From the NCBI GenBank assembly GCA_027493055.1, contig JAPUDO010000115.1, positions 1-41,104 of the forward strand: DNA of 41,104 nucleotides, given 5' to 3'. The DNA is from Niabella sp. Lineage in GTDB: Bacteria > Bacteroidota > Bacteroidia > Chitinophagales > Chitinophagaceae. This document shows positions 4,402 to 32,575 of this stretch, piece by piece (the first letter of the stretch is position 1; each line of letters starts with the position of its first letter). The position numbers and the translations under genes are program-made. The notes under the pieces are model-generated. The model was not told the origin of the DNA, did not search any database, and was given only the letters and a program-made list of their open reading frames with translations.

Positions 4402-5727
4402 ATGTCTCAAAAATGGGTTTCACTGTTTCTTTTCTTTTTTATTACGGTCTTTAGCATTCAAATTACCGCCCAGGATCTCTTTCCTGATGACTCGCCCATA
4501 CCTGGTTGGTTCAGGCAAATCGCTCCAACGGATATAAACAAACTTGGCAAACAATACCGTATCACCGATCATGGTGTGAGCAGGGACAGCAACCTGTTGC
4601 AGACACAGAACATACAGGAAGTAATAGATAAAGCTGCTGCCAACGGAGGTGGCGTGATTGTTGTTCCCGGGGGTACATTTCTAAGTGGCTCCCTGTTTTT
4701 CAAACCTAAAACACATTTGTACCTGGAAGAAGGCGCAACCCTGAAAGGCAGTGATGACATCAGCAACTTTGCGCTGGTAGAAACCCGGATAGAAGGACAA
4801 ACACTGAAGTACTTTGCAGCTTTGGTCAATGCCGATGCTGTGGATGGATTTACTATTTCAGGTGAGGGTACACTGAATGGCAATGGCCTGCGTTACTGGA
4901 AGTCTTTCTGGCTGCGCCGGGCCTTTAATCCCAAATGTACTAATATGAACGAAATGCGCCCCAGGCTGTTGTATGTTTCCAATAGTAAAGATGTGCAGGT
5001 ATCAGGTATCAGGCTGATCAACTCTCCTTTCTGGACTTCCCATTATTATAAATGCGAAAACCTGAAATTACTGGATCTTTATATTTACGCGCCTCATGCG
5101 CCCGTAAAAGCGCCCAGCTCAGATGCCATAGACCTGGATGCCTGTAAAAATGTGCTGATCAAAAACTGCTATATGTCGGTAAATGATGATGCCGTAGCAT
5201 TAAAAGGTGGTAAAGGGCCGTTTGCAGATAAAGATCCCAATAACGGTGGCAACTATAATGTAATCATTGAAGATTGTACCTATGGTTTTTGTCATAGCGC
5301 CCTTACCTGCGGCAGCGAATCGGTTCATAACCGCAACATTATTTTACGCCGTATAAAGATAGAACATGCTCAACGGCTGCTCTGGCTGAAAATGCGCCCC
5401 GATACACCGCAGCATTATGAGTACATTACCGTGGAAGATATTTCAGGATTTGCATCCAATATGTTGTTTATACAACCCTGGACGCAGTTCTTCGACCTGA
5501 AGGGGGAGCAGGAGATACGTACCACCAATGCCCATCATATCACTATGAAAAATATAAATCTTGACTGTAATGATGTTTTTAATGTAAAGCAATCAGATCA
5601 ATATACGCTTTCGGATTTTACATTTACCAATCTCACCATACGGAACGCTAAAAATCCGCAGATCAAAAAAGAATATGTAAAAAATTTTACTATAAATAAT
5701 GTGGAAGTCAATAATAAAAAATTATAA
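4402..5727 (+). CDS. GH28-family (polygalacturonase-like) exported enzyme with altered active-site motifs
   Basis: A 441-aa protein with a signal peptide (residues 1-23, ending TAQ) followed by a right-handed parallel beta-helix typical of GH28: the GGGVIVVPGGTF entry, the SPFW segment, and repeated strand motifs to the C terminus. The canonical GH28 motifs are NTD, DD, GHG and RIK. Here the first reads SSDAIDLD (D241), the second is intact (D262-D263), the third reads CHSALTCGS (H298), and the fourth reads LKM (K330). All three catalytic aspartates and the His and Lys therefore appear present, but the context is non-canonical. GH28 enzymes cleave pectic uronic or related linkages; the substrate here is uncertain. 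The 3' end overlaps the convergent GH183 gene by 6 nt. No LacI operator is seen in front of it. Confidence 0.8.
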   Translation: MSQKWVSLFLFFFITVFSIQITAQDLFPDDSPIPGWFRQIAPTDINKLGKQYRITDHGVSRDSNLLQTQNIQEVIDKAAANGGGVIVVPGGTFLSGSLFFKPKTHLYLEEGATLKGSDDISNFALVETRIEGQTLKYFAALVNADAVDGFTISGEGTLNGNGLRYWKSFWLRRAFNPKCTNMNEMRPRLLYVSNSKDVQVSGIRLINSPFWTSHYYKCENLKLLDLYIYAPHAPVKAPSSDAIDLDACKNVLIKNCYMSVNDDAVALKGGKGPFADKDPNNGGNYNVIIEDCTYGFCHSALTCGSESVHNRNIILRRIKIEHAQRLLWLKMRPDTPQHYEYITVEDISGFASNMLFIQPWTQFFDLKGEQEIRTTNAHHITMKNINLDCNDVFNVKQSDQYTLSDFTFTNLTIRNAKNPQIKKEYVKNFTINNVEVNNKKL

Positions 5728-6819
5728 GCCCGTCATATATTTTATTTCTGTCCGCATTAAAAAAACGTTGTAGGGATGCCACATCGACATTAAGAAATAA
5801 ATATGATCCGAGTAAGCAGATAAAGGATGAATATAAGATCCATATAGCCGGGGGTATTCGTTCCGGTGCGCAACGCATTGCGGCTGGCTCCATACTGCTG
5901 TTAGTTCCGGCGCATAACGTGCCGATATCTCGGCTCTTGTTTCATTAAAATACAGCAGCAGCCATTGCCTGCTTTTTTCATGGTATATAAACGACAGCTC
6001 TCCGGTTGCATCTTCAAAAAGGTTCGTTGCTTTTTCCTCATCATGTACCCATTCTTTTTTTAACCCGTTCCAGTATTCGTACCGGTCCTGTACCTCAATA
6101 TCTTTTTGCCTGAAACGTGCCAGCCTCGGCGAAGATTGCCTCCCTGATTCGGTGCCGATCATATAAACAAAAGAATCTTTCTTAGAAAAGCCCACCTGTC
6201 CAAAATTGCTATCTTCTCCAAACCGGACACGGGGAACAGGTTTCCAGGAAACACCGTTATCATCTGACCGGTAAAATGCAGAATAATTGGTACCCCAGTT
6301 GGAGGATTCCCAATGCCTTACATTCATATAGTGCACATAATCTGCACCATTAGCTCTTACAGCACCGGTGGGAATAGAGGTCCAGTTCCCGTTGCCCGAC
6401 ATATCCTTTCCTCCGTATATTATTTCGCACGCCTGGCCGGATGCATCTACTGCCATATTATTAATGGTAAGGCCATCCTCCAGCTTCTCATCGCCTGAAA
6501 AAGCCAGCACATTACAACGCCAGTCACTTCCTTTAACCACCGGCTCCTCAAAATGGTGGCGCCCGTAAGTATCTCCAAAGAAGATCCCATACCGGCCTTT
6601 TTCCATTTCCCAGATGATCCCGAGGTCTGTTCCGCCTACATTATAATTGATATGAGAGGTATTGGGGTTTTTTAAGTATTCCTCAGCGCCGGGAGCACCG
6701 GTTACCCGTGCTATACGAACAGCTTTCCCGAATTGTATATCGCAGGAAGGAGCCTTGTGAGAAGTAAAAACAAACAACAGCCCAATACATATAATACCGT
6801 TGCAGTAATTTCTGATCAT
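5722..6819 (-). CDS. DUF4185 / GH183-family protein, predicted endo-D-arabinanase (copy 1)
   Basis: A 365-aa exported protein. It carries the DUF4185 hallmarks: VGGTDLGIIWEM (around residue 61), IFFGDTYG, the LEDGLTINNM segment, and SIPTGAVRANGADYVHYMN (around 150). It ends with YIHPLS and MSMWHPYNVFLM. The fold is expected to be a five-bladed beta-propeller. Members of this family, now GH183, were shown to be endo-D-arabinofuranases acting on mycobacterial arabinan. The signal region has hydrophobic residues 8-18; a lipoprotein cysteine at 26 is possible but unclear. It is the last gene of the susC operon, 13 nt after the 688-aa gene. A paralogue of the same architecture lies at 29365-30504. 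Its TAA stop lies over a Leu codon of the convergent GH28 gene. Confidence 0.85.
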   Translation of the reverse strand: MIRNYCNGIICIGLLFVFTSHKAPSCDIQFGKAVRIARVTGAPGAEEYLKNPNTSHINYNVGGTDLGIIWEMEKGRYGIFFGDTYGRHHFEEPVVKGSDWRCNVLAFSGDEKLEDGLTINNMAVDASGQACEIIYGGKDMSGNGNWTSIPTGAVRANGADYVHYMNVRHWESSNWGTNYSAFYRSDDNGVSWKPVPRVRFGEDSNFGQVGFSKKDSFVYMIGTESGRQSSPRLARFRQKDIEVQDRYEYWNGLKKEWVHDEEKATNLFEDATGELSFIYHEKSRQWLLLYFNETRAEISARYAPELTAVWSQPQCVAHRNEYPRLYGSYIHPLSAYSDHIYFLMSMWHPYNVFLMRTEIKYMTGL

Positions 6820-6832
6820 TTCATAAAACGGC

Positions 6833-8899
6833 TTAATTATCTGCTAAAAATTTACCGCCGTACTTATCATATAGCCTATTGTATGCCTCGGCGGCGGCGC
6901 CATTGCCCCAATCATAAATGGTGAACTCACCAATGCCCAGCCCGTCATCGTTTGTAACGCCGTCATGGCCATAGTTCTCCATCATAAAACCATAATCCTT
7001 CTCACCAAAAAACGGCCAGCGCGCCTGCCACTGCTTCATTGTTTGAGGGTTCAGCGGCGTGTACATCATTGTAAAAGAGGCGCGCAAAGCAGCAAGGCCC
7101 CGTTGCAGGTATTCTTTCTTTTTCAGTATTTCTCCATACTCCAGTATCAGCCCGGCAAAGAGGCTTTGACGGGAATCGTTCCATTCAGCATCAGCATTCA
7201 TTACACCAAAACCACCCAAACTGCGCACAGCAATAAACGGTGGCTGCCATACAGCCTGGTACATCAATAATTCATCTAAGGTGCGCTGACCCCATTTCAG
7301 GTAATTTTTGCTTCCGGTAATTTTATACATTTCAAGCAAAGCCTCAGCTGTCCAGTAAACAGAAAAACTGTTTTGCTTAAACATATTATTACGCGCTATT
7401 TTCTTTCCCACCCAGTTATCACTTCCTACCCTGCTGCAGGACCAGTATGTTTCAAAATCTTCCCATTGTCCTTCGGGAATTATTTTTCCCATTACCGCTT
7501 TCATTGCTTTTTGCGCACTTTGCAGGTAACGCTGCTCCCTGGTTGCCTGGTACATCTTTAATAAAAAAGTAACAGAAACACTGGTCTCAGGAGATTGCTT
7601 CAGGGAAGGCATCGGCTTCAGGTTATCTAAGTTCAGCCAGGCCGGAAAAAACCCATCACTATCCTGCAGCCGGATCAATGCATCAGCATAACGTTTGGCA
7701 TAATCCAATAACCTTTTATCCTTTTCCAGTTCATTATACCAAACCAGCATCCAGTAAGCTGTAAAGCTCATATCGGCAATATGGTAGGGAGACTTTCGCG
7801 GATCCCATGTTAGAGGATTCCGGTTAGAGTTACCAAAATATTTTGTATTCCACCCTTTGGAGCGATGATATCTTCTTCCGTCTATTTCTACTTCTTCCAT
7901 TTCTGTAGCTATCACGCTTTTAAAGAAACCCTCCTGCTGTGGAAACGCCAATGCCAGCTCTTTTGTTTTTATAGCAAACTGCTTTAAAGTATCATTTTTT
8001 GTTCTTACCGCATACCTGTATAATCCCTGCGCGGAACGCAGTGAATTGAACCATGCCTGGTTCCATATAGAGCGGAACTCTCTTTCGTTCACCTGTCCTT
8101 TATAGTTAGGACTTTGAGTGGTATTGACAATAAAAACAGGCGCTCCTACAGTCTTGCCGTTCAATTCAAACTCCTGCCATACTGCGCTTTTCCAGTTTTT
8201 GAAAGCCCAGTTGTACGTTTGCTTGACATAAGGCTCCATATCTGTTTGATGCAGCGGCTCGCCTGACTGGTAAAGCGGGGTGGCCCATTTATTCCACATA
8301 AAAGCTGTGGCGCGCTGGAAAGGATTCTGAATATCTTCAGACTTTCCGGAAACGATCACATAAAAACCTATTTCATTTTTCCCTTCCGGGATAATCATAC
8401 CTCCTTGTCTTTCGTATAAAATATGATCGGTAACTTTGGACTTTCCCAAACCTAGTACCAGCTCATTAGCCGGCACATTCATATCCATCAGCCAGGGAAG
8501 CCCGTTTTTTCTGATCAGATCCAGGTCCGGGATCACCGATATCATTTTTTTCTTACCGGCAGCAATAAGTGCTGGTGCACGAAATACATGCTGCGGGATG
8601 ATATGATTATTACCGGGTGTTAAATGAGGCGCCCAGTTAAAAGAAGGTGAAAAGGCAGGTATAATCCTTACCAGCAGGTCATCCTGCGGAACAGGAGCCT
8701 TTAGCTCCCAGGTTACAGACACATGAAACATGTTTGCTGATACTTTCCTGTAGCTTACCGTAGCCTCCGCATCGCCAGCCTTTGCTGCTGCCACCTGCTT
8801 TATATAAGTGTTCAGCGCCTTAGGCGTAACTGCTGCGCTGCAGGCAAATAGTGATCCTAATAAGAAAAAAACGATAGCTGCTGATCTGATCATTTTCAA
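6833..8899 (-). CDS. Uncharacterised lipoprotein with probable (alpha/alpha) six-hairpin glycosidase-like domain
   Basis: A 688-aa protein. The N terminus is a lipoprotein signal with lipobox LFAC (Cys20). Residues about 40-210 look like a beta-rich N-terminal domain (VSVTWELKAPVPQDDLLVRI). Residues about 260-680 contain regularly spaced helical hairpins, with words such as YALDA-like repeats (LDYAKRYADALIRLQDSDGFFPAW, shortened here to LIRLQDSDGFFPAW) and SFSVYWTAEALLEMY. This pattern is typical of six-hairpin (alpha/alpha) toroid glycosidases and lyases. I do not recognise a named CAZy family. Acidic residues in QDSDGFF, SPETSVS and the C-terminal TNDDGLGIGEFT are candidates for catalysis. 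Its place between GH43 and GH183 in the operon suggests a glycan-cleaving role in the same pathway. Confidence 0.7.
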   Translation of the reverse strand: MKMIRSAAIVFFLLGSLFACSAAVTPKALNTYIKQVAAAKAGDAEATVSYRKVSANMFHVSVTWELKAPVPQDDLLVRIIPAFSPSFNWAPHLTPGNNHIIPQHVFRAPALIAAGKKKMISVIPDLDLIRKNGLPWLMDMNVPANELVLGLGKSKVTDHILYERQGGMIIPEGKNEIGFYVIVSGKSEDIQNPFQRATAFMWNKWATPLYQSGEPLHQTDMEPYVKQTYNWAFKNWKSAVWQEFELNGKTVGAPVFIVNTTQSPNYKGQVNEREFRSIWNQAWFNSLRSAQGLYRYAVRTKNDTLKQFAIKTKELALAFPQQEGFFKSVIATEMEEVEIDGRRYHRSKGWNTKYFGNSNRNPLTWDPRKSPYHIADMSFTAYWMLVWYNELEKDKRLLDYAKRYADALIRLQDSDGFFPAWLNLDNLKPMPSLKQSPETSVSVTFLLKMYQATREQRYLQSAQKAMKAVMGKIIPEGQWEDFETYWSCSRVGSDNWVGKKIARNNMFKQNSFSVYWTAEALLEMYKITGSKNYLKWGQRTLDELLMYQAVWQPPFIAVRSLGGFGVMNADAEWNDSRQSLFAGLILEYGEILKKKEYLQRGLAALRASFTMMYTPLNPQTMKQWQARWPFFGEKDYGFMMENYGHDGVTNDDGLGIGEFTIYDWGNGAAAEAYNRLYDKYGGKFLADN

Positions 8900-8979: not shown

Positions 8980-9972
8980 TTACTTACTTTTTAAATAATA
9001 CAGCGAAGGAATATCCATTACCAGCTTATCAGCACTTCCCGGCACAGCAACGAATTTAGCTTTTATCAAAGCGGTCCGGCGAGGTGATACTTTATCGATT
9101 GCATTATGCGAATGAAATACATAATTCAGGCCGCCGCTGCCATCGGTAAACATATCGCCATGTCCTACGCCGGGCTTTCCACTGTTTGCCATGCTTAGGA
9201 TAGGGTTTTCTGCCGCTTTGGTCCAGGGACCCATTGGGCTGGCTGATGTGGCATAACCCACCGCATAATTCTGGTTTTCAAAATGGTTGGCTGTATAAAT
9301 TAAATAATACAGGTTGTTATGCTTTAGCACGGTAGGCCCTTCTACAACCCTTGCCTGTATTATTTCCCAGGGTTCGGTGGCTGTGAAACAGAGCGTACGG
9401 GTAGATTTATGAATAGCCGTAAAATCGTCATTGATGCTTGCCACATAAATTTTATTGCCATTTGTGATATCTACATGATAAAGGTATTTTTTTCCATCGC
9501 TGTCAAAAAAAACGAAGGGATCAATATTTTTCTGATCAAAAGCTATGGGATCTTTTGCATAAAACGGACCTTCGGCTCTGGAAGCAACGCCAATGGCTAT
9601 TTGTTCATTGGCCACATAAGCCATATAGAACTTATTATTATACTTCCATACCTGGGGTGCCCAGAAGCCCTGTGTACCAAAAGACTCCATGGTTCTTACA
9701 GCAAAGCCACCCACTACTCCTTCCGGGACTTTCCAGTCTTTCAGATCAGATGAAACAAATACTTTAATTCCCTGGTTAGGCGTATAGCCATCTGTACCAT
9801 ACAGGTAATATTTATTATCATTGAAAAAAATAGTCGGATCGGCCTGGTAAACAGGCTGGCCTGTTGAAGGCGGGGGATCAGGCTGCGGATCATCAGTAGC
9901 CGATCCCTTTCCGCAGGAAAAAAACAGCAGGCCTAAAGCTATAAGCATTAAATTATTTAGTCTTCCCTTCAT
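8980..9972 (-). CDS. GH43-family lipoprotein glycosidase
   Basis: A 330-aa protein with lipobox FFSC (Cys20), then a Pro/Asp-rich linker (residues 26-40) and a five-bladed GH43 propeller. The three catalytic acidic residues are visible: D45 in ADPTIFF (base), D151 in NIDPFVF (pKa modulator) and E211 in VVEGPTV (acid). GH43 enzymes are usually alpha-L-arabinofuranosidases, xylosidases or arabinanases, but some act on D-galactofuranose. In this gene neighbourhood, removal of galactofuranose or arabinofuranose is the likely role; the exact specificity cannot be read from the sequence. The linker after the lipid anchor suggests display on the outer membrane. It lies 32 nt after the SGBP gene in the susC operon. 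Confidence 0.88.
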   Translation of the reverse strand: MKGRLNNLMLIALGLLFFSCGKGSATDDPQPDPPPSTGQPVYQADPTIFFNDNKYYLYGTDGYTPNQGIKVFVSSDLKDWKVPEGVVGGFAVRTMESFGTQGFWAPQVWKYNNKFYMAYVANEQIAIGVASRAEGPFYAKDPIAFDQKNIDPFVFFDSDGKKYLYHVDITNGNKIYVASINDDFTAIHKSTRTLCFTATEPWEIIQARVVEGPTVLKHNNLYYLIYTANHFENQNYAVGYATSASPMGPWTKAAENPILSMANSGKPGVGHGDMFTDGSGGLNYVFHSHNAIDKVSPRRTALIKAKFVAVPGSADKLVMDIPSLYYLKSK

Positions 9973-10004: not shown

Positions 10005-11246
10005 CTAATTAAGGTATGGAGTGGGATCAAATTTATAACGGTATACATCCCCATTCGGCTCCAGCGCCAGTATGTCTTTACCAATCACTAAAAGTTTTTC
10101 ATACCGGTTCCAGCCGGTTCCTACCAGTATTCTTTCACCAGGAACTGCATCGGCAGACATTTTGTACAACCACAAATTGCCATCGGCGCTTAATGCCAGT
10201 AAATAATTATCCCAGGCAATCACCTGCTTATAAGCTGAAAAGCCGGAGCCCACATTGGTCTTGGGAGCTTCCACCCTTGAAAGCAGTGGCTGGCGCAATA
10301 AATCACCGCTACCATTTATCAGTAAGAAGTAATTTTTGAACGGGATGATAGTAGAATAGGGGTTCCAGAAATCGCCTAACCACCATTCCGTCCATACATC
10401 GGGAACAGCATCACTTCCCACCCGAAGGGTCATGTCGGGGGTCCATTTCATATAAAACAGGCCTGCCCAGAAGGGGTAATTCCTGATCACAGCATCTACT
10501 TCATTAATATAATACAGGTTCTCAGCATCAGGCCATTTTATTTCCCGCCAGGTTTCTACAAATGCTTTAGGCGTAGGATTGAAAGTGCCGTCTGCCTGGG
10601 GAAAATAGATAAACGCCTTATTATCTTTGTGGCGCAATACCAGCGTATTCTGGGCGCCGCGCGCCATAATAATCCTGCTCTTATTAGCCCAGTCAAGCGC
10701 AGCCCCTGTTGACAACACTTTCTGCCTCTTTTCCACATCTGCCATATAGGAACGGGTAAATATGTAATAGGTGGTTCCGTTGGCATCGTTGATCCGCTGC
10801 CCGTCAGCATTTGCAATGCTTAAAGGCAATATATATGCCTGGAAAGGATTTACATTACTTGTTTTTATACTCAGGGTAAGTGTTGATGTAGCTCTTTGGC
10901 CGGCAGGAATTGTTGTATTTTGCTCCAGCTGGTAACTTCCGTCAGGCAGCGGCTGATAAGAGGTATTATGCTTGAGGTTAAAGCTATCTACCAGCGCTTT
11001 TTTTACTTCAAACCGTATATTCAGAACGCTGCTTAGCGTTGGAAGGCCCCCTAAGTAAGCACTATAAGGAAAAGTATAGGTTGTATCTGCGAGCGGTAAC
11101 CCTGTTATGTAAGGGTTGTTGACAACAGCTCTCGGCATATAAACATTATTATAACCTGCAGGATCTTCTATACCGGTATCATATTTATCGCAGGAAGTAA
11201 AGGCCACTGAAATACAGGCTATGATAAAAAATATTTTATTTTTCAT
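10005..11246 (-). CDS. Surface glycan-binding lipoprotein (DUF1735-like N terminus, propeller-like C terminus)
   Basis: A 413-aa protein with lipobox FTSC (Cys19). Residues about 25-165 resemble the DUF1735 domain found in SusE/F-position binding proteins (VYMPRA, an IRFEVKKALVDSFN stretch, and LPLSIANADG). Residues about 180-413 contain repeated segments ending in hydrophobic-aromatic strands (KAFIYFPQ, YLLALSADGNLWLYKMS, DILALEPNGDVYRYKF). These suggest a tachylectin-like beta-propeller. The gene follows susD with a 44-nt gap, the usual place of a surface glycan-binding protein. It is expected to bind the target polysaccharide on the cell surface. No catalytic motif is seen. Confidence 0.8.
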   Translation of the reverse strand: MKNKIFFIIACISVAFTSCDKYDTGIEDPAGYNNVYMPRAVVNNPYITGLPLADTTYTFPYSAYLGGLPTLSSVLNIRFEVKKALVDSFNLKHNTSYQPLPDGSYQLEQNTTIPAGQRATSTLTLSIKTSNVNPFQAYILPLSIANADGQRINDANGTTYYIFTRSYMADVEKRQKVLSTGAALDWANKSRIIMARGAQNTLVLRHKDNKAFIYFPQADGTFNPTPKAFVETWREIKWPDAENLYYINEVDAVIRNYPFWAGLFYMKWTPDMTLRVGSDAVPDVWTEWWLGDFWNPYSTIIPFKNYFLLINGSGDLLRQPLLSRVEAPKTNVGSGFSAYKQVIAWDNYLLALSADGNLWLYKMSADAVPGERILVGTGWNRYEKLLVIGKDILALEPNGDVYRYKFDPTPYLN

Positions 11247-11290: not shown

Positions 11291-13075
11291 TTACCAGTAC
11301 ATACCTTGCTGTAAATTGGGATCCTTGTTCAGCTCAGACTGAGGTACCGGCCAGAAATAATCCCTGGGCGCGATGAAAACTCTCTTTTCCACAACCGTTC
11401 TCTTGTAGAACGATGCGTCAGTTGCTGAGGTACCGCTGGTGATGTTCAGCCCGTATAAATTACCGCTGTTTGTGGTTGCTGCAATCTTCCATCTTCTTGT
11501 ATCAAAATACCGATGCCCTTCAAATGCCAGCTCTATCCTGCGCTCCGCCCATATCTGGGCACGCATCTCATCCTTTGAAAGACCTGCTGCCAGCTCCGGA
11601 AGGCCCGAGCGTGTGCGAATGGCATTTACATATTTATACACATCTGCCACCGGGCCCTGGCTTTCATTAAGCGCTTCGGCATAATTCAAATATTGCTCTC
11701 CAAGGCGGAAATAGATAAACGTTTTAAGGTCCCAGCCTGTATTGGTGATAACATTGATAAGCGGATTGGAGAACTTCCTCAACACATACCCGGTTTTAGA
11801 AAAATCCGAGGCATTTTTTGAAGCGCCGTCTTTTCCTGAATACCACATCTGTATTGCCGTATTTTTCCACATTTGCCCCGAAAAGTGAACACTTGCATAA
11901 AAACGGGGTTCCCTTTTTACGTACATATTACTTACTCCTGCAGGCCAGTATTTTCCCGCAGCATTTGTAAAGCCCGTTTCTGTGTATCCGGTTGCGCTAT
12001 TGATAACGGGTGATCCATCTGTATTATAACCTGTAACAATCGTACGGCCCTGATCATCCCTGTAAGCATCTACCAATTGCTGGGATACAGACATAATAGA
12101 AAAGCCGCCATATCCTATAGGATTAGAGCAACGCTCCAGGTGCTGATAGGCCTGGTAATTGGTAGCCCACAGCACTTCCTTATTATGATTTTGCAGGAAT
12201 ATATTTGTATAATTTTGCATGGGGTCATTACCCGGCGCCGTGTAAAGGCCATAGCCACCGGCTTCGCAGGCATCTATACATGCTTTTGCCGCATCGGCCG
12301 CTATCTTCCATCTGTTTGCATCATAGCTTTGCGGAAACAGGTTTGCTCCTTCGGGGTCTTTAAAGGCTTTAAAGTCGTTATTGCCATTAAATAAAGGGCT
12401 TGCCACATACAGTAATACCCTTGCTTTTAAAGCCAGCGCGGCTGCCCTGGTAGCCCTGCCCAGTTTATCGCTGGATACAGAAATAGGTAACAATTCAGCG
12501 GCCTTATCACAGTCTTTTACAATAAAATCCACACAGGCATCCACCGACGATCTTTTAATTGTTTTGAAATCATCAGAAGTATTCCATGCCCTGTCCATTA
12601 TAGGAAAAGGACCGTAAAGCCTGAACACCATAAAATGATCCCAGGCTCTCAGGAAATAAGTTTCTCCAATCCATGAGTTCTTATGTTCCTGGGTATATCC
12701 GTCCTGAAAAGGAAGCTGGTCAATATTTTCCAAAAACAGGTTCGCCTTACGGATGGTTTGGTAAGCAAACTGCCAGTTATCCAAAATATTCTGGGAGTTC
12801 CAGCCGCCATTGTTCAAATAATGCGAATAGCTGCCCGGAAAAGTGATTTCCATTTCATCAGAGGCGCCTGTCCACGGCGCCCGTGAAGGGGGATCCACAG
12901 GATTAATCTCCCAGTTTTGGCCGGCATACATAGAAGTAAGGAAGGCCTCCGTATGCAGCCTGTTAGCAAAAACATCTTTGAGGGTAAGATCCTCATCAGG
13001 TGTTTTATCCAAATACTTTGAACACGAACTTAGCATCATTGCGAAAAGTCCCAATACAAATAGTCTTGCTTTCAT
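11291..13075 (-). CDS. susD: SusD/RagB-family outer-membrane glycan-binding lipoprotein
   Basis: A 594-aa protein with lipobox LSSC (Cys18) followed by KYLDKTPDEDLTLKDVF, the typical SusD N-terminal start. It has TPR-like helices (AALALKARVLLYVASPLFNG) and the C-terminal RagB/SusD signature AERRIELAFEGHRYFDTRRW. It should form the lid of the SusC transporter and capture oligosaccharides at the cell surface. It starts 28 nt after susC and precedes the SGBP. Length and order are normal for a SusCD pair. The ligand cannot be read from the sequence; context suggests an arabinan-containing glycan. Confidence 0.95.
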   Translation of the reverse strand: MKARLFVLGLFAMMLSSCSKYLDKTPDEDLTLKDVFANRLHTEAFLTSMYAGQNWEINPVDPPSRAPWTGASDEMEITFPGSYSHYLNNGGWNSQNILDNWQFAYQTIRKANLFLENIDQLPFQDGYTQEHKNSWIGETYFLRAWDHFMVFRLYGPFPIMDRAWNTSDDFKTIKRSSVDACVDFIVKDCDKAAELLPISVSSDKLGRATRAAALALKARVLLYVASPLFNGNNDFKAFKDPEGANLFPQSYDANRWKIAADAAKACIDACEAGGYGLYTAPGNDPMQNYTNIFLQNHNKEVLWATNYQAYQHLERCSNPIGYGGFSIMSVSQQLVDAYRDDQGRTIVTGYNTDGSPVINSATGYTETGFTNAAGKYWPAGVSNMYVKREPRFYASVHFSGQMWKNTAIQMWYSGKDGASKNASDFSKTGYVLRKFSNPLINVITNTGWDLKTFIYFRLGEQYLNYAEALNESQGPVADVYKYVNAIRTRSGLPELAAGLSKDEMRAQIWAERRIELAFEGHRYFDTRRWKIAATTNSGNLYGLNITSGTSATDASFYKRTVVEKRVFIAPRDYFWPVPQSELNKDPNLQQGMYW

Positions 13076-16292: not shown

Positions 16293-16352
16293 AACAGTGT
16301 AGATTAATAATGAAAAGAGTCAAAAAGACATTGTTTTTATAGTTAAAATTTT

Positions 16353-16368
16353 GCTTAATCGTTTAAAA
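16353..16368. promoter_or_regulatory. Putative LacI-type operator, secondary susC site
   Basis: GCTTAATCGTTTAAAA: the left half and central CG match the consensus, with two substitutions in the right half. It lies in the expected susC 5' leader, 87 bp centre to centre from the site at 16440-16455. Two spaced sites could allow looping or a roadblock. Confidence 0.6.
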
Positions 16369-16439
16369 CAATACATACATAAACCCCAAAAAACAAACAG
16401 CAATCGAACTAAAATTTTCTGCTTTACAGAATTAATATA

Positions 16440-16486: not shown

Positions 16487-16542
16487 AAAAAATATTTTTC
16501 GTGATAAGGACTCCTTCGGGAGAGCTTGTCCACGGGAATCCC

Positions 16543-21151: not shown

Positions 21152-21162
21152 TGGCAATATTT

Positions 21163-24661: not shown

Positions 24662-25825
24662 TTAGTTTACTTCTAAAATACCCGCATCGGGCAGTTTGGG
24701 GAATTTTGCATGAGGCTCGGTCTGGTACCAGTACGCCACTGTAATAATATCCGAATGCTGTGGTAAATATCTGCCACCACTGCGCCAGCCCAGGTCCTGT
24801 ATAGTTACTTTTAAATCTTTATCAAAACGAACGGGATCCATAATATGCCAGCGGTACATGCCAAAGCGCATTTGTGAACCATATAAACCATCGGGGCGCA
24901 ACACCTGGTGCAAACCTGCATAAGCAGTGGAATACTCCTGGTACTGACGGGTGCGTTTGTTCTCAAAGTTATAAGAGCCGCAGAAATAATCCTCTGTACC
25001 GGTGCCTACAATAGTAGCATTTTCTTTGTCGCCATCCATAAAGAATTTTATTTCTCCTTCTCCCCACCAGCCGTTGTTAGTAACGCCTACTCCCATATAA
25101 GTACCTACATAATGCCCTTTACCTTTTACACCGTCCAGGATGGTGTGCAATGAACCGATGTTAGGTTTGCTGCGGCGGTATTGCGCATGAAAATAGGCTT
25201 CATCATCTCCTACTTCTGTAAGTGTATAATCCACCTGGTAATATAAACGCATGGGCTGGCTGTCTATATTCTGCATGGTCATTTTAATTTTTTTTCTGAA
25301 AGGCATTTTCCAGTAGCTGTTAAAAGCACTGCCGGGATTAACGGTTATTGCCAGCGAGTTCAACGGAGAAAACTCATTCCAGGGCGTTGCGAAGAAAGGA
25401 CCTATAGGGCTTTCAACCGATGGATCGGTTTCATCATCGTAATATACCCTGAGTATGGAAAAATTGTTATTGCCTGTTGGTGTCATCCAGATATGCTGTA
25501 TTGCGCCGGGGCCTGTAATATCAGCCATTGTAAAAGTTTCACCCGGCTCAATAATAATGAATGGGTTTACTTTCCATCCTTTTCCCAAATCCCGTGCTTC
25601 GCTGGCAGCATTGGCTACATTGCGTTTGCCTTTGTCCTTTACAGGATCGGCCATAGCGCCTTTGCCTTTTTCACCGGTAAAGTTTTCGGGGCTGATAGAG
25701 CGGGTTTTAGCATCAGAAAGGCGGGACAGATTACCAAGGCTCATATCGAGGCCGTTAAACTTACCCTGCTGCGCGTTAACGCTAATAGCTACTACAATAG
25801 TAAACAGGAATAAAATCTTCTTCAT
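24662..25825 (-). CDS. GH172 (DUF2961) family, predicted exo-D-arabinofuranosidase, short form
   Basis: A 387-aa exported protein (signal residues 1-18, ending VNAQ). The DUF2961 core is complete: DITGPGAIQHIWMTP, the double-psi-like strands, GWWGEGEIKFFMDGD and GTGTEDYFCGSYNF. The two catalytic glutamates known in the GH172 difructose-dianhydride enzyme correspond here to E258 (or E256) and E278. GH172 members hydrolyse alpha-D-fructofuranosides and alpha-D-arabinofuranosides. The length is normal for a single-domain member. A consensus promoter and LacI-type operator lie just upstream (25851-25897). It heads an operon with the DUF6786-like gene and perhaps fucI. Confidence 0.9.
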   Translation of the reverse strand: MKKILFLFTIVVAISVNAQQGKFNGLDMSLGNLSRLSDAKTRSISPENFTGEKGKGAMADPVKDKGKRNVANAASEARDLGKGWKVNPFIIIEPGETFTMADITGPGAIQHIWMTPTGNNNFSILRVYYDDETDPSVESPIGPFFATPWNEFSPLNSLAITVNPGSAFNSYWKMPFRKKIKMTMQNIDSQPMRLYYQVDYTLTEVGDDEAYFHAQYRRSKPNIGSLHTILDGVKGKGHYVGTYMGVGVTNNGWWGEGEIKFFMDGDKENATIVGTGTEDYFCGSYNFENKRTRQYQEYSTAYAGLHQVLRPDGLYGSQMRFGMYRWHIMDPVRFDKDLKVTIQDLGWRSGGRYLPQHSDIITVAYWYQTEPHAKFPKLPDAGILEVN

Positions 25826-25850
25826 GTGGCTTTTTTTATAATTGACAATT

Positions 25851-25866
25851 GCTTATACGTTTAAGC
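25851..25866. promoter_or_regulatory. Putative LacI-type operator upstream of GH172 (short)
   Basis: GCTTATACGTTTAAGC, with flanking TT and AA extending the symmetry. It abuts the -7 box at 25866-25873 and is 33 nt from the 3' end of the LacI-type gene. Confidence 0.78.
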
Positions 25867-25897
25867 AAACGTACGGTATAAATATATATTCACCAAT
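25866..25897 (-). promoter_or_regulatory. Promoter of the GH172-DUF6786 operon
   Basis: On the minus strand, ATTG (25897-25894), 20 nt, then TACGTTTG (25873-25866). The -7 box is a perfect TAnnTTTG; the -33 box keeps TTG. The operator overlaps its downstream edge. Confidence 0.65.
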
Positions 25898-25899: not shown

Positions 25900-26934
25900 T
25901 TATTTCATTTTTTTTTGCCTGCTGCTTTGCCCGATCACAATTTTGGAAGGCACCACTACTTTTAACGTTTTGGGCTGTGTGCTGTTTATACTTTTGATGA
26001 GCGATTGTACTGCTTTTTCACTAATCTCATTCAGGTTCTGTTTTATATAGGTTATTGATGTATAAAAGAATTCAAATGTATCGCTTTCATCAAAACTGAT
26101 CATACCTAAATCATCAGGCACCTTCACATTTTTTGCATGAATTACTTTAAGTGACTGTACAGAAATGCTGTTGGTGGCAAAAACAAGCGCATCCACTGCA
26201 TTTGAAGTTGCATCCAGCAGCTGCGCTATTGCCTCAGCTACATGCTTTTTATAATCCTGGAAGGGCACTTTTACTAACCACCTGGATTGAAAGCGGATGC
26301 CTGCATCTTTAATCGCATCTTTATATCCCTGAATGCGATCCTGCATGTGCGTAAGCGGTGTATCATACGCAATGATCCCTATTTTCCTATAGCCGTTTTT
26401 TGTAAGCAGCTTCACTGCACTGTACATAGCATCGTGGTTGTCTGTAACCACTGTATTTGTTTCTACATCCTTAAATCCCCTGTCCATTAAAACAAACGGA
26501 ACGCTCTTTGTTTTTAACTCTTCAATCTGCGACTGGGAACCTGCCACCGGCGTTATAATAAGACCATCCACCTGCCGGTTCAAAAATGTATTGATGAGGT
26601 TCTGGGATTTCTCTAGCTGTTCATCGCTGCTTCCAAACAACACCGTATAACCATTTTTTTGCGCTTCCAGCTCAATATTACGGGCCAGCATTGCAAAAAA
26701 CGGGTTGGATATATCGGCAACAATCAGGCCTAAGGTTTTGGTCCGGCCAAACTTCAGGCCCCGGGCTATGAGGTTAGGCTGATAGTTCATATCAGCGGCT
26801 ACTTTTCTTACTTTTTTGGCAATCTCTTCTCCAACACGCGCCTCTCTTTCCTTACCATTTAATACATAGGAAACCAGCGCCGTGGAAACACCTACTTTTT
26901 CTGCAATATCTTTTATGGACACTCTTTTTGTCAT
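25900..26934 (-). CDS. LacI-family transcriptional regulator of the PUL
   Basis: A 344-aa protein. The N-terminal helix-turn-helix (residues 4-26, VSIKDIAEKVGVSTALVSY) is followed by the hinge with NYQPNLIARGLKFGRT (about 52-67). The periplasmic-binding-like effector domain then starts at LGLIVADISNPFF and contains VDGLIITP and GMISFDESDTFEFF. It is cytoplasmic and DNA-binding, and should respond to a sugar or sugar phosphate. It is the only DNA-binding regulator in the window. Six CG-centred palindromes lie in front of PUL genes, one of them 33 nt beyond its own stop codon. The effector is unknown; D-arabinose, D-ribulose or an arabino-oligosaccharide would fit. Confidence 0.93.
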   Translation of the reverse strand: MTKRVSIKDIAEKVGVSTALVSYVLNGKEREARVGEEIAKKVRKVAADMNYQPNLIARGLKFGRTKTLGLIVADISNPFFAMLARNIELEAQKNGYTVLFGSSDEQLEKSQNLINTFLNRQVDGLIITPVAGSQSQIEELKTKSVPFVLMDRGFKDVETNTVVTDNHDAMYSAVKLLTKNGYRKIGIIAYDTPLTHMQDRIQGYKDAIKDAGIRFQSRWLVKVPFQDYKKHVAEAIAQLLDATSNAVDALVFATNSISVQSLKVIHAKNVKVPDDLGMISFDESDTFEFFYTSITYIKQNLNEISEKAVQSLIKSINSTQPKTLKVVVPSKIVIGQSSRQKKMK

Positions 26935-27057: not shown

Positions 27058-27083
27058 ATGCTTTTATACTCCGATAAAAAATG

Positions 27084-29354
27084 CTATTTATCCGCACATA
27101 GCTTTGCCCATTTCAAATTAGGCTTTGGCCCCATTTCATATTCCAGGATACCTCCTTTTAAAATGTCACTATGTAAAATGGTATTTTTAGCGTGTACTTT
27201 ATTATTCAGCTTTACAGATTGTATATAAATATTTCCGGGCTTGCTGTTCTTTGTTTTTATGATAAAGGTCTTCCCGTTTTCCAGGTCTATTTCCGCATGT
27301 GCTATCCTGGGCGAACCAAAATTGTACACACCGCTTGCAGGGTTAACCGGGTAAAAACCTAAAGCATTAAAGATATACCATGCCGACATTTGACCACAGT
27401 CTTCATTACCTGCATACCCGGCAGCATCAGTAGTGTAAAACTTATTCATGATCTCATCCACACGCTTTTGTGCTTTCCATGGTTCTTTTACATAATTATA
27501 CAAAAAAGCTACATGATGGCTGGGTTCATTACCATGCGCATATTGCCCTATAAATCCTGAAGCATTTTCATTCTTTTCATTTTCACCACCTTCCAATACA
27601 AAAAATTCATCCAGTTTTTTAATGAACTTTTCCCGTCCGCCCAATAACTGTATTAAACCCGGCACGTCCTGCGGTACATACCATACATATTGCCATGCAT
27701 TTGCTTCGGTATAAGGATTACCACCATTATTGCCATATTGAAAAGGATTGAAAGGCTGCAACCATTTGCCGTTCTTATCCTTTCCCCTGAAGAAGCCGGT
27801 TTCCGCATCGAAAATATTTTTGATGTACTGAGATCTTTTTATGAAATAATTATAATCATCCGTTTTTCCCAGCTTCTTTGCCAACTGCGCCACGCACCAG
27901 TCATTAAAAGCAATTTCCAGTCCTTTTGAAACAGATTGTGATTCCAGGTCTTCGGGAAAATACCCATACTGATCCAGGTATTTAAACGGAGCGCCGGGGT
28001 GGTCCCGCAGTGAAGAGTTTTTAACCGCTTCATAAGCTTTTTCAAGATCAAACCCTTTTAACCCTTTTTCAACCGCATCCACAATAACAGGAATAGAATG
28101 GTTACCGATCATACAATAATTCTCATCGTTCCATAATTGCCAAACAGGCAGGTATCCATAAGTTTCATATTGCCTTACCAGGCTTTGTATGAACGCTGCA
28201 TCTCTTTGCGGTTTTAGTAAAGTATAAAGAGGATGTGCTGCACGGTAAGTATCCCATAACGAAAAAGTAGAGTACTGTTTCCCTCCCGCTGCTTTGCGAA
28301 CCGTCATGTCTGTAGCCTGGTACTCACCGTTTACATCAGCAGTATTATTGGGATGTATGTAAGCATGATAAAGCCCTGTATAAAAAATCGTCTTTACGGA
28401 ATCTGCTGCTTCAATCCTTATGTTTGACAGCTCTTTTTCCCACAGGTTATCTGCCTGCATAGCTATTGCATCAAAATTCCAGTCCCTGATCTCGGCTTCT
28501 ACATTCTCCCTGGCGTTTTTTACGCTTACAGGCGAAATACCCACTTTCACTAATACCTGCTCTCCTTTTTTTACATCAAAATTAAGCGCGGCCCTGACAT
28601 CTGTAGTGCCGTTAATCACTGACTGATTTTTAAGCGAATGAAGTCCCCAGGCCATTTCATGGCTTACGATAGGCTTAGAGAAACGGGCATGAAAATAAAC
28701 TTTTCTCATTCTTGCCCACCCGGTGATGACCCTGTATCCTTCTATGGTATAATCATCAATTTTCCTGATCTCTGCACCTAATATCCGGCAAACCCAGTAA
28801 TCTCGCTTTTTACTAAGCGAATGATCCAGATCTATCATAATATGAGCCGGCTTATCATCATTGAAAGTATAGCGGTGAAACCCTGCATGTTCTGTTGCTG
28901 TCAGCTCGGCCCTGATATTATAGTCCAGCAGGTCTACCTGGTAATAACCCGGACGGGCCGTTTCCTTATCATGTGAAAAAGCAGAACGGTAGCCCGAGCG
29001 GGGCTTATCGTTATCACCAGGAAACCATTGCACATTACCGGTAGCCGGCATCAAAAGCACATCAAAAAGATCTGCCACGCCTGTTCCGCTTAAATGAGTA
29101 TGGCTGAAGCCCACAATGGTGTTCTGTCCATAATTATAACCCGAAGCCGGGCTGAAAATTTCGTTATCGGTATCCGGACTTAATTGCACGGCTCCAAACG
29201 GAACACAGGCCCCGGGAAAATTACTGCCAGAGAGGCTTTTACCGTCTACTGAACCGGTGCCGATGAAAGGGTTGACCCAGGAAGTTGTTTTGCTCTGTGC
29301 TGCAACTGTATAACTAAATGCCAATAATAAGACAGTGGCAAAGCTGATTTTCAT
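27084..29354 (-). CDS. GH92-family exo-alpha-mannosidase
   Basis: A 756-aa exported protein from the ATG at 29354, which gives a proper signal peptide (MKISFATVLLLAFSYTVAAQ). The ORF can be extended 11 codons, but that start would overlap the preceding gene. GH92 signatures are present: WVNPFIGTGS near the mature N terminus, GFSHTHLSGTG, YSTFSLWDTYRAAHPLYT, YAHGNEPSHH (with the catalytic-acid Glu) and NEDCGQMSAWYIFNALGFYP (with the basic Asp). The family consists of Ca-dependent alpha-mannosidases. It is last in the GH172-GH183-GH92 operon, 10 nt after GH183. It would suit the mannan or mannose caps of lipoarabinomannan, which is inference. A C-terminal relic of a second GH92 is at 19671-19877. 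Confidence 0.92.
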   Translation of the reverse strand: MKISFATVLLLAFSYTVAAQSKTTSWVNPFIGTGSVDGKSLSGSNFPGACVPFGAVQLSPDTDNEIFSPASGYNYGQNTIVGFSHTHLSGTGVADLFDVLLMPATGNVQWFPGDNDKPRSGYRSAFSHDKETARPGYYQVDLLDYNIRAELTATEHAGFHRYTFNDDKPAHIMIDLDHSLSKKRDYWVCRILGAEIRKIDDYTIEGYRVITGWARMRKVYFHARFSKPIVSHEMAWGLHSLKNQSVINGTTDVRAALNFDVKKGEQVLVKVGISPVSVKNARENVEAEIRDWNFDAIAMQADNLWEKELSNIRIEAADSVKTIFYTGLYHAYIHPNNTADVNGEYQATDMTVRKAAGGKQYSTFSLWDTYRAAHPLYTLLKPQRDAAFIQSLVRQYETYGYLPVWQLWNDENYCMIGNHSIPVIVDAVEKGLKGFDLEKAYEAVKNSSLRDHPGAPFKYLDQYGYFPEDLESQSVSKGLEIAFNDWCVAQLAKKLGKTDDYNYFIKRSQYIKNIFDAETGFFRGKDKNGKWLQPFNPFQYGNNGGNPYTEANAWQYVWYVPQDVPGLIQLLGGREKFIKKLDEFFVLEGGENEKNENASGFIGQYAHGNEPSHHVAFLYNYVKEPWKAQKRVDEIMNKFYTTDAAGYAGNEDCGQMSAWYIFNALGFYPVNPASGVYNFGSPRIAHAEIDLENGKTFIIKTKNSKPGNIYIQSVKLNNKVHAKNTILHSDILKGGILEYEMGPKPNLKWAKLCADK

Positions 29355-29364
29355 GGCCTGATTT

Positions 29365-30504
29365 TTATTTGATATTAATGTCTGCACTCATTAAAAAAAC
29401 ATTATACGGCTGCCATAAAGACATCGTAAAATAGATCTTGTCTCCTTTATTTTTCAATGGGTGCATGTAGGGGCTATACAAACCCGGGTACTCTTTAGCA
29501 GTAGTGATCAGTTTTATATTGCTCCAGGGTCCTGTTAATGTTTTTGCACTCCTGTATACCAGGGCATGTCTTTTTACCACAGGGTTGGCATCATGATGGA
29601 AGTCGTAGATATAGGCAATGATCCATCTTTTATATTTTTCGTGATATAATAACGAAGCTTCTCCCACCGGAGCAGGAATCACTTCTGTAGCAGCATTTTC
29701 ATCACCCTTTACCCATTTATCCTGGTTACCGTTCCAGTATTCATAATTTGCCAGGTTCAAAATATCTTTTTCTCTGAAACGGGCCAGCCAGGCGCCGCTG
29801 CCCCTGCCCGAAAGCGTACCTAACATATAAACATAACCATCCTTTTTGGCGTAACAAACTTGTGAGAATCTGCTATCAGCTTTAAAAGTAACATCAGCTT
29901 CTCTAACCCAGTTAGCGCCACCGTTGTAAGAGGCATACAGGGATGAAAAATGAGTGAGCCACCGGCCTTTGGGTGCTTCCCATTTATAAATATTCATGTA
30001 ATGCACATAGTCAGCACCTCCTGCATGAACGGCTCCCGTAGGAATAGAAGTGTAATAATCAGACGGAACGGGATTTGCTGCAGCCCCTGCACATATTTCG
30101 CGGGCCCGGCCCTGCTCATCCAGGCTCATACTATCCAGTGTAAGCCCATCCTCCAGCTCATTATCACTTGAAAAACCCAATACATTCGAACGCCAGTTAC
30201 TGCCATTACCACCACCCTTCTGGGGTTTAAAATCCTTTCCGTTGGTATCACCGAAAAAAATGCCGGTCTTATTATTGCCCATATCCCACATAATACCCAG
30301 GTCAGTTCCTCCCACATCATATTTTTCACTGGTATTATTAGGATCAGGAAGGTTCTCTCCTTCCAGGGGTTTTCCTGTAACCCGGGCAACTCTCTTTACA
30401 TTGCTTAATTCAATTTCACCGGCCTGATGCATTTTTGCAGCACAGGCCAGCAGTAAAACCGGCATCAGCAGAAGGCCGCTTATCCTGGTTAATAAACTCC
30501 TCAT
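29365..30504 (-). CDS. DUF4185 / GH183-family lipoprotein, predicted endo-D-arabinanase (copy 2)
   Basis: A 379-aa protein with lipobox LLAC (Cys21). It has the same motifs as the copy at 5722-6819: VGGTDLGIMWDM, IFFGDTNG, LEDGLTLDSMSL, SIPTGAVHAGGADYVHYMN and SLWQPYNVFLM. It is clearly paralogous but well diverged between the motifs. Its start overlaps the stop of GH172 in an ATGA junction, implying translational coupling. The clear lipid anchor suggests surface or periplasmic attachment, whereas copy 1 has a less clear signal. The endo-D-arabinofuranase function is inferred from the family. Confidence 0.87.
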   Translation of the reverse strand: MRSLLTRISGLLLMPVLLLACAAKMHQAGEIELSNVKRVARVTGKPLEGENLPDPNNTSEKYDVGGTDLGIMWDMGNNKTGIFFGDTNGKDFKPQKGGGNGSNWRSNVLGFSSDNELEDGLTLDSMSLDEQGRAREICAGAAANPVPSDYYTSIPTGAVHAGGADYVHYMNIYKWEAPKGRWLTHFSSLYASYNGGANWVREADVTFKADSRFSQVCYAKKDGYVYMLGTLSGRGSGAWLARFREKDILNLANYEYWNGNQDKWVKGDENAATEVIPAPVGEASLLYHEKYKRWIIAYIYDFHHDANPVVKRHALVYRSAKTLTGPWSNIKLITTAKEYPGLYSPYMHPLKNKGDKIYFTMSLWQPYNVFLMSADINIK

Positions 30505-32426
30505 TTTTTTATTAATATAATACGGTTGAAAACAAGGCCGGGCGCTTTAGCAGACCTGAACATAATGTTTACAGGTACCAACGGTACCGTATTGCCGGCA
30601 ACTTCAACGTCTCCCAGATAAATGGCCACATCCTTTTTCCCCCGCTGTACATCTACAGTACGCCAATCGTATATTTTTGTCACATCAGATATACGAATAT
30701 CTATTTTATCAACACCGGCCTCTACTTTGTTCAGGTACAGCTGATATTTTCCTGCAGGAACTTCGCTTACATTCACAGATACATTTGCATTGGCTTTATC
30801 TTTTACGATAGCATTCCCGTCCTTTAAATCTATATCCCCGTTATAGGTAAGATGTTTTAAAAAGCCGGTATAGAAAGTAGCCGTATCCGGTATAAATACC
30901 TTTGTCAGTCTATTGGAAGGCTCGTTGCTAACAGCTATTGCCTTATCAGCATAATACATAGCCACAGAGGTATAGCTTACGGGACGGTTATTCACAGGGC
31001 CATGCTCAATGGTATGTTTAATGCTCCTCGAAAAAGGCATTTTATCGCTAAGGAAAAAACGGTAGCCGCCCGTTCTGCTTAAAGGAAGCGTATAATCCAT
31101 GCAACCGCTTAAAGCGGCGCCCAGCTTTTCTACCCAGCCACCGGGCTGTGCATACCAACCTCCGTTAAAATAGTCTTCACTGCCCGTTCCGTGCAGTCTC
31201 AGTTCTCCATCAACATAGGTTTGGTCATCTCCTTCAAAGAATTCGGTAAAATTATTATAATCCCGGCCCTGGGCCTGCAGCAGGGTGCCTATATAATGGC
31301 CCCTCCCCTGCCCTTCCAGGAAAACATATGATTGTCCGTTAGCCGGCTCATCATTATTCCATGTTGCATAAAACCTTCCTTCGTTTGCCATACGCTTCTG
31401 GCCTGTATAGTAAACAAGCGTTTTCAGGCGCAATGGTTCCTGGGGCACACCATCTGCCTTCCTGTACACCAGCTCTATATTTGCGCTTTTATCAAAAGGC
31501 ATGGGAATATAACAGTATAATTTTCCGTCAGTAGCACCCATTAATAAGCTCTCCATAGCCCGTTGTCCAAATGCAAAACCGAAAAAGTCGGCTACAGGAA
31601 TATATACAGCAGGGACTGTTTCATTATCCCAGGTAATTTTTATATCAGCCTGTTTATACAGGCCGCTAAAAATCTTTGAAGGATTTAGCTCAATACCGGT
31701 TATCCTGCCGCCGGAAGAGATGCGGGCAATGGTCTTTGAGTTGCCAGGCTGCAATTCTATATCACTTTCTATTGATTTGACACCAGGATACTTAAAATTA
31801 TCAATGGTCCTGTTCTGGTTGCTCCACAACCTGGTTACCTTGTCTAAAAGGTTCTTTTGCTCAGCAGCTTTCACCGCATTGAATGTTTCTACTTTATAGG
31901 ATTGATTATATTCCCGGTACTGTATCTGGTGAAACATGATCTTTTCTCCCCGGAAAACTATTTTGCAGCTTTTGGCGTATGGAATGGGAACATAGCTGTA
32001 ATAACCACCTACCATATAAGCATCTACCAGCGGCTTCAGGAATGGCTCCTGCTTTCCGGAGAACAGATCGCTGAACTTCAGAGACAGGCCGGGCGCTGAG
32101 CTTCCGTCAAAATAAAAATCAAGGATATCATCTGTAGGCGTGGGTGTCCATATCCGCTCAATAACGCCACTCCCCTGAACATCCAGCAGGACAAGGCCAT
32201 CTTGCTCTTTTTTTATAAACGAGTATTTGCCGCTGAAGCCGTCATCATTGCCGCCAGTGCGGTCATACGAAGAAATTTGCTTTACACGCGTGCCGTCCAT
32301 ATATGCGGGTAACCCGCTGATATTATGTAAGCGGTTCAGCTCTGTTTCAAAATTTACTACTTTCTGTGCCTTTCCAGACACTGTTGCAGCGAGTACTGCT
32401 GTTATAAAAAAAATCTTTTTCATCAT
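30501..32426 (-). CDS. GH172 (DUF2961) family, predicted exo-D-arabinofuranosidase, long form
   Basis: A 641-aa exported protein. I start at the ATG-ATG pair at 32426/32423, giving the signal MKKIFFITAVLAATVSGKAQ. The frame stays open to 32597, but that extension would run across the operator and promoter, so it is rejected. The DUF2961 core spans about 30-480, with GSGVIERIWTPTPTD, TEFFEGDDQTYVDGE and LHGTGSEDYFNGGWY. The catalytic Glu of the last motif is retained. A C-terminal beta-rich domain (about 500-641, YQLYLNKVEAGVDKIDIRI) is absent from the short paralogue. It is first gene of the GH172-GH183-GH92 operon. Confidence 0.87.
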   Translation of the reverse strand: MMKKIFFITAVLAATVSGKAQKVVNFETELNRLHNISGLPAYMDGTRVKQISSYDRTGGNDDGFSGKYSFIKKEQDGLVLLDVQGSGVIERIWTPTPTDDILDFYFDGSSAPGLSLKFSDLFSGKQEPFLKPLVDAYMVGGYYSYVPIPYAKSCKIVFRGEKIMFHQIQYREYNQSYKVETFNAVKAAEQKNLLDKVTRLWSNQNRTIDNFKYPGVKSIESDIELQPGNSKTIARISSGGRITGIELNPSKIFSGLYKQADIKITWDNETVPAVYIPVADFFGFAFGQRAMESLLMGATDGKLYCYIPMPFDKSANIELVYRKADGVPQEPLRLKTLVYYTGQKRMANEGRFYATWNNDEPANGQSYVFLEGQGRGHYIGTLLQAQGRDYNNFTEFFEGDDQTYVDGELRLHGTGSEDYFNGGWYAQPGGWVEKLGAALSGCMDYTLPLSRTGGYRFFLSDKMPFSRSIKHTIEHGPVNNRPVSYTSVAMYYADKAIAVSNEPSNRLTKVFIPDTATFYTGFLKHLTYNGDIDLKDGNAIVKDKANANVSVNVSEVPAGKYQLYLNKVEAGVDKIDIRISDVTKIYDWRTVDVQRGKKDVAIYLGDVEVAGNTVPLVPVNIMFRSAKAPGLVFNRIILIKK

Positions 32427-32528
32427 TCTTGTATACTGTGTGTTTCTGATACCTGCAGGTGCAATATCGGGGGAAAACAGCGGCTTACTCCTGTATTTAA
32501 ATTCACAGCAGGCAATCTTACTATTTTT

Positions 32529-32544
32529 GCTTATTCGTTTAAGC
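32529..32544. promoter_or_regulatory. Putative LacI-type operator upstream of GH172 (long)
   Basis: GCTTATTCGTTTAAGC, flanked by TT and AA. It abuts the -7 element of the operon promoter and is about 103 nt upstream of the start codon. Confidence 0.78.
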
Positions 32545-32575
32545 AAAGTAAGGAGACAAAAGCCAAACCACCAAA
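32544..32575 (-). promoter_or_regulatory. Promoter of the GH172-GH183-GH92 operon
   Basis: On the minus strand, TTTG (32575-32572), 20 nt, then TTACTTTG (32551-32544). The -33 box and spacing are perfect; the -7 box has one mismatch. The layout is the same as at susC and at the short GH172. Confidence 0.65.

Follow-up and report, generated by a model that had tools for sequence, protein, structure and literature searches.

The walls of mycobacteria and related bacteria are the best-known source of D-arabinan, and enzymes that cut this polymer are tools for dissecting walls of this type. According to the available parts of PMC10115798 and PMC10509167, two D-arabinan loci have been worked out, one in a gut Bacteroidota (Dysgonomonas gadei PUL42, supported by proteomics; PMC10115798) and one in Microbacterium (PMC10509167), and the GH183 family was shown in these sources to cut arabinogalactan and lipoarabinomannan. 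The initial annotation of the DNA studied here had GH116 reported as D-arabinan-degrading in D. gadei; in the accessible text of PMC10509167, it is instead Microbacterium arabinogalactanolyticum whose GH116 was demonstrated to be an exo-β-D-arabinofuranosidase, and the GH116 of D. gadei was noted only as putative.

Here we analysed a window of 41,104 nucleotides that spans all of contig C115 in a draft Niabella genome of 5.75 Mb. As judged from its sequence, the window very probably encodes a polysaccharide utilization locus (PUL) for D-arabinan, of the same kind as D. gadei PUL42. What is new is the near genus-wide distribution of such loci, a gene set split over two contigs with a common palindrome, and two conserved parts, a 688-aa protein and DUF6786, the former of which may be a new sugar-cutting enzyme. 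Families were called by Pfam and NCBIfam profile searches and nearest solved relatives by PDB searches. The locus comprises 15 genes, all on the minus strand, running from ~32426 (ORF edge 32597) down to 5722, and the family scores of the named genes lay far above chance expectation:

30501..32426 (ORF to 32597), minus strand: double-domain GH172, DgGH172b type (DUF2961, 205 bits in two stretches)
29365..30504, minus strand: predicted GH183 endo-D-arabinanase b (DUF4185, 294 bits; lipoprotein-like N-terminus by eye)
27084..29387, minus strand: predicted GH92 α-mannosidase (Pfam; best solved relative 6f8z, 889 bits)
25900..26934, minus strand: LacI-family regulator (Pfam)
24662..25825, minus strand: predicted GH172a exo-α-D-arabinofuranosidase, ExoMA1 type (DUF2961, 286 bits)
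23393..24646, minus strand: DUF6786, mutarotase-fold, lipoprotein-like (Pfam and fold)
21424..23211, minus strand: FucI, predicted D-arabinose isomerase (NCBIfam, 1047 and 1081 bits)
19859..21157, minus strand: FucP-like MFS sugar permease (NCBIfam, 275.9 bits; cut-off 280.4)
16667..19225, minus strand: predicted GH116 exo-β-D-arabinofuranosidase, ExoMA2 type (twin-arginine-like N-terminus by eye)
13104..16292, minus strand: SusC (NCBIfam, 955 bits)
11291..13075, minus strand: SusD (Pfam)
10005..11246, minus strand: SGBP-like lipoprotein (BT_3987-like N domain; putative SGBP role)
8980..9972, minus strand: GH43 (156 bits)
6833..8899, minus strand: 688-aa (α/α)6-barrel protein, candidate unnamed glycosidase family (no full-length family match)
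5722..6819, minus strand: predicted GH183 endo-D-arabinanase a (DUF4185, 303 bits)

The permease, scoring just below the cut-off, is a near relative of FucP rather than a certified FucP. The double-GH172 ORF opens at 32597, and a signal-peptide-like N-terminus opens at the ATG at 32426 or 32423; because of this N-terminus, and because a putative operator (32527-32546) falls inside the longer reading, the gene probably starts near 32426. The initial annotation had listed two GH183, two GH172, GH116, GH43, SusC/SusD, an SGBP-like protein, FucI and a FucP relative, all of which were found where it had placed them, and the profiles assigned the enzymes to GH172, GH183 and GH116 as it had proposed; its inventory omitted GH92, LacI, DUF6786 and the 688-aa protein, and the probable start near 32426 corrects it at the right-hand end. 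The same window also carries QueA (33046-34095), through which the genus was assigned, a 16S search of the same genome having given no match. QueA showed 96% identity over 305 aa to the N. defluvii genome, 93% to that of 'Sphingobacteriales bacterium 41-5' and 84% to N. hibiscisoli (read through stops), compared with 57-66% to genomes of Proteiniphilum, Pedobacter, Parapedobacter and Mucilaginibacter; Niabella belongs to the Chitinophagaceae. Outside the locus count, a GH28 family gene (4402-5727, plus strand) abuts the end of GH183a on the opposite strand and is flanked by a gene without a Pfam match (3186-4370, plus strand).

The PDB searches placed GH183b nearest to EndoMA1 (179 bits), GH116 nearest to ExoMA2 (390 bits versus 60 for the next relative) and GH172a nearest to ExoMA1 (375 bits, compared to 139 for DgGH172c and 119 for αFFase1), while FucI matched a D-arabinose isomerase at 976 bits and L-fucose isomerases at 922 bits and lower. 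The double-domain GH172 was distant from all four solved GH172 enzymes (65-108 bits) and 44% identical to the Dysgonomonas gene in the GH172b position; it resembles DgGH172b, a weakly active enzyme of 1.5 domains according to the available parts of PMC10115798. Residues named in the accessible text of PMC10509167 were mapped onto alignments of relatives, counting distinct rows only. In GH183, R198, E243 and Y293 were present in 49/49 rows, W138 in 48/49, and D33 and D51 also in 48/49, the exception being truncated at these two positions; all six residues occur in both window copies and in a third copy on contig C96. The GH116 residues E431, H446, R483 and D557 (ExoMA2 numbering; the PDB chain is offset by 4, hand-counted) were kept in all 24 rows and correspond to E423, H438, R475 and D549 of the window protein. 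Two Glu were invariant in GH172a (34/34 rows), and the position of the fructofuranoside-blocking Asn was occupied by Asn in 29 rows and by Asp in the other 5; the window enzyme has E256, E278 and N286. The window locus combines GH183 carrying the catalytic Asp pair and Glu243/Arg198, GH172 carrying both Glu and the blocking Asn, and GH116 carrying the residues of ExoMA2 with a SusC/SusD pair and FucI.

For gene content, the closest comparison was the locus of Dysgonomonas sp. UBA7710, orthologous to PUL42; over 142 aa, the UBA7710 GH172c shares 97% identity with the D. gadei enzyme of solved structure. In a single run, the order of the UBA7710 locus is LacI, FucP, GH172a, GH116, DUF6786, 688-aa protein, GH172b, FucI, SusC, SusD, SusC, SusD, a 314-aa protein, GH172c, GH183, GH183 and kinase. 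The Niabella set matched this locus in a different gene order. Niabella and D. gadei PUL42 share GH172a, GH172b, two GH183, GH116 and FucI; common to Niabella and UBA7710 besides are DUF6786, the 688-aa protein, FucP, LacI and SusC/SusD. The published D. gadei numbers for GH172a (02467), GH116 (02468) and GH172b (02471), taken from the available parts of PMC10115798, have room for just two genes between them, 02469 and 02470, which are therefore probably those of DUF6786 and the 688-aa protein. Unlike PUL42, the Niabella set is split over two contigs (C115 and C96) in a different gene order, its window has GH43, SGBP and GH92 and no kinase, and its third GH172, on C96, is only 38% identical to Dysgonomonas GH172c. 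GH92 was rejected as a core gene: the only related loci to show it were that of G152 and that of G826, where it lies at the stretch edge. The window SusC/SusD were 45-48% identical to those of L006 and L010 versus 33-37% to the Dysgonomonas pairs. The Microbacterium arabinogalactanolyticum locus, as far as the accessible text of PMC10509167 describes it, is alike in its isomerase and in having GH183, GH172 and GH116 enzymes that keep the residues tested here, and differs in being of Gram-positive type, with an ABC importer for SusC/SusD and a kinase in the cluster. The second Niabella locus, on C96, contains:

C96, GH183: third copy in the genome, 68% identical to a Dysgonomonas GH183 over 457 aa
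C96, SusD and SusC: 75% and 74% identical, respectively, to Dysgonomonas counterparts
C96, GH172: Glu motif GAED present, 38% identical to GH172c
C96, LacI: LacI-family gene
L068:7099-8154, minus strand: C96 351-aa secreted-looking protein, no Pfam match, a conserved part (56% identical to the gene directly after GH183 in G809)

The D-arabinan assignment made by the initial annotation is well supported, since D-arabinan enzymes and a D-arabinose isomerase are the nearest solved relatives, the tested residues are kept, and the genes present correspond to those of the PUL42-orthologous locus in Dysgonomonas; the palindrome and the GH183 distribution described below also speak for it. Speaking against it are the lack of a pentulokinase in the window, with the best homologue lying in an L-arabinose gene group, the FucP score just short of its cut-off, the low identity of the C96 GH172 to GH172c, and a SusC/SusD pair nearer to other loci than to Dysgonomonas. 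GH43, which the annotation had counted in the enzyme set, is present and neither supports nor competes with the D-arabinan reading because no specificity could be assigned to it.

Comparison of intergenic regions returned 33 shared words versus 5, 0 and 0 in shuffles and led to the palindrome TTGCTTAAACGNNTAAGCAA. With up to 3 mismatches allowed and both strands included, the window had 8 matches, at 5 places, against 0.10 expected, and none of 100 shuffles reached 8. As the pattern was drawn from these same sequences, its independent support comes from C96 and from other Niabella loci. The places in the window are:

16351..16370, minus strand: operator-like palindrome before SusC (3 mismatches)
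16438..16457, minus strand: operator-like palindrome before SusC (1 mismatch)
19223..19242, minus strand: operator-like site (3 mismatches) that overlaps the start codon of GH116
25849..25868, minus strand: operator-like palindrome before GH172a (perfect)
32527..32546, minus strand: perfect operator-like palindrome, ahead of the probable double-GH172 start

On C96 the palindrome lies directly before SusC and at one further place, so that the two loci share a putative palindromic operator. A scan of 12 further GH172a loci from Niabella showed it at GH172a in 10 (G119, G147, G148, G149, G151, G153, G155, G156, G158 and L024/G157), the remaining two, G022 and G152, lacking it. G826 had one weak match (3 mismatches), and none was found in G809 or on the C126 stretch. 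The LacI gene adjoins the site region in the window, and its product presumably binds the palindrome.

GH183 matches above 100 bits occurred in 14/17 Niabella genomes, including N. defluvii with a copy in pieces, and were not found in the other three (G022, G159 and G160). Such matches were present in one of 144 other Chitinophagaceae drawn (G124), and in a draw across the order (n = 298) just in G372 besides two Niabella; these counts exclude PF13810 matches that reached ~50-60 bits in other members of the family and covered ~100-170 positions. GH183 is thus nearly a genus trait of Niabella (Fisher p 2e-16, shared descent ignored). Samples L024 and G157 (contig), L014 and G826, L017 and G833, L013 and G166, L030 and G154, and L035 and G150 are duplicates, and L008 and L009 are near-identical. 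Carriage of the set almost throughout the genus makes environmental scavenging of mycobacterial-type walls a testable proposition. The literature matches listed held no tie of Niabella to D-arabinan; some of the Niabella-naming papers among them deal, going by their titles, with plant matter, compost or agriculture. G022 (L145/L146) and G413 (L183/L184) have reduced clusters in which GH172a, DUF6786, FucI, FucP and the 688-aa protein occur with no GH183 or GH116 in 40 kb; these perhaps serve D-arabino-oligosaccharides. In the drafts of G152 (L114-L116) and G150, N. defluvii (L134-L136), FucP, DUF6786, GH183 or SusC frames were in pieces, reflecting either decay or sequencing error.

From these data we infer the substrate, activities, cell location and regulation as follows. 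Secreted or surface GH183 endo-enzymes would cut the D-arabinan of arabinogalactan or lipoarabinomannan, presumably of actinobacterial walls, and SusC/SusD with the SGBP would bring the fragments into the cell. Removal of α-D-Araf would fall to GH172a and the double-domain GH172, and that of β-D-Araf to GH116, while GH92 may remove mannose caps; the 688-aa barrel protein would most likely be a further glycosidase for the same glycan, and DUF6786 may speed anomer or ring interconversion of the freed D-arabinose. FucP would import D-arabinose, FucI would convert it to D-ribulose, and an AraB-like kinase encoded elsewhere in the genome would feed the pentose phosphate pathway. The LacI-family protein would control both the window locus and that on C96 through the common 20-bp palindrome.

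The kinase step departs from the complete route to the pentose phosphate pathway that the initial annotation had suggested, as Pfam found no pentulokinase in the 15-gene locus. Within the same genome, the best homologue (52%, 651 bits) is on contig C126, where its gene adjoins those of an L-arabinose isomerase (AraA) and a class II aldolase-family protein. E. coli AraB accepts several 2-ketopentoses, which makes supply of the kinase in trans from C126 plausible. An FGGY-type kinase lies inside the cluster in UBA7710, G413 and G809 (Pfam confirmed for G413), and we took an in-cluster pentulokinase as an accessory, not a defining, feature of PUL42-kind loci.

A locus of this composition might instead serve a D-Araf glycan of non-actinobacterial origin, for instance on pili or in certain lipopolysaccharides, or short D-arabino-oligosaccharides that other organisms leave behind. 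D-Araf occurs on Pseudomonas pili and as a motif in a few lipopolysaccharides (available parts of PMC10115798), and the GH183-free clusters of G022 and G413 with GH172a, DUF6786, FucI and FucP point the same way. A module of GH172a with FucI or GH116 and DUF6786 is alone no proof of polymeric D-arabinan, because it is also found in genomes with only partial PF13810 matches. We nevertheless consider this reading improbable for the window, which has two GH183 genes, with a third in the genome, of a family that cuts arabinogalactan and lipoarabinomannan (PMC10115798 and PMC10509167, as far as available), and whose GH116 and GH92 suit lipoarabinomannan, with its β-D-Araf ends and mannose caps. Still less probable is that FucI and FucP act on L-fucose in a mixed locus for plant glycans or fucans: the two families are named for that sugar, GH43 is present and GH28 adjoins on the other strand, but Pfam identified no fucosidase family among the 15 genes, and FucI is nearest to D-arabinose isomerase and co-occurs with GH172a and DUF6786.

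DUF6786 and the 688-aa protein are given no role in the available parts of PMC10115798 and PMC10509167 and are clear assay targets. The model of DUF6786 showed a mutarotase fold, and its profile had no PDB match up to E 1; the likeness to aldose 1-epimerases and galactose mutarotases is one of fold only. Those enzymes use a catalytic His and Glu, and by eye the position taken for the His was not conserved in DUF6786. A literature search found no paper with DUF6786 or PF20583.

In both Bacteroidota and Bacillota, the 688-aa protein is found repeatedly in D-Araf loci, whether or not these have GH183. Its predicted model consists of an (α/α)6 barrel and a β domain. The best fold matches were GH76 mannanases, and a profile built from its alignment had one PDB match (E 0.063). 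GH76 enzymes carry a catalytic Asp pair. The comparison with these α-1,6-mannanases is one of fold only, the 688-aa protein having an extra N-terminal β domain and no Pfam GH76 match. Barrel residues D481, E483, C488, D570, E572 and D575 were present in 23/23 distinct rows and E438 in 22/23. The protein was not assigned to GH127, to which its match was short and partial (28.7 bits, cut-off 24.9; 45/376 positions in the best stretch); no stretch passed alone, and 2/10 relatives matched. On its modelled fold, the protein is a candidate unnamed glycosidase family.

That it founds such a family as a second exo-β-D-arabinofuranosidase, or by cutting another D-arabinan linkage, is a possible but tentative reading, which its recurrence in both phyla, the conserved barrel residues and a 1141-aa frame in G028 (L156:8621-12043, minus strand) fusing a relative (30%) to a double GH172 all favour. 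Within the stretches compared (named-locus flanks of ≤10 kb, absence being absence from that stretch), it was present where GH116 was not seen (L029, L033, G022, G413 and L023) and absent from GH116 stretches L007, L012, L034, G147, G149, G153 and G156. Against this, both proteins occur together in the window, G119, G148, G151, G155, G158, L008, L013, L028, L032, G826 and G809, and with so many loci having both, the idea of a plain substitute for GH116 was not upheld. Lyases, epimerases and terpene synthases lay within ~4 Z units of the GH76 fold matches, and remote relatives were also found in unrelated contexts (G415, G424 and G642). The G028 fusion led us to rate higher a joint reading, evenly poised in our judgement, in which the 688-aa protein would be an unnamed GH family acting on D-arabinofuranosides, in PUL42 too, and Niabella would scavenge Mycobacteriales-type walls with its two loci in one LacI regulon.

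In the Virgibacillus oceani stretch (L029), GH183 and the homologue of the 688-aa protein have a true GH127 relative (16007-18043, minus strand; 82 bits) only a few kb away, and GH42 and an esterase are also encoded there.
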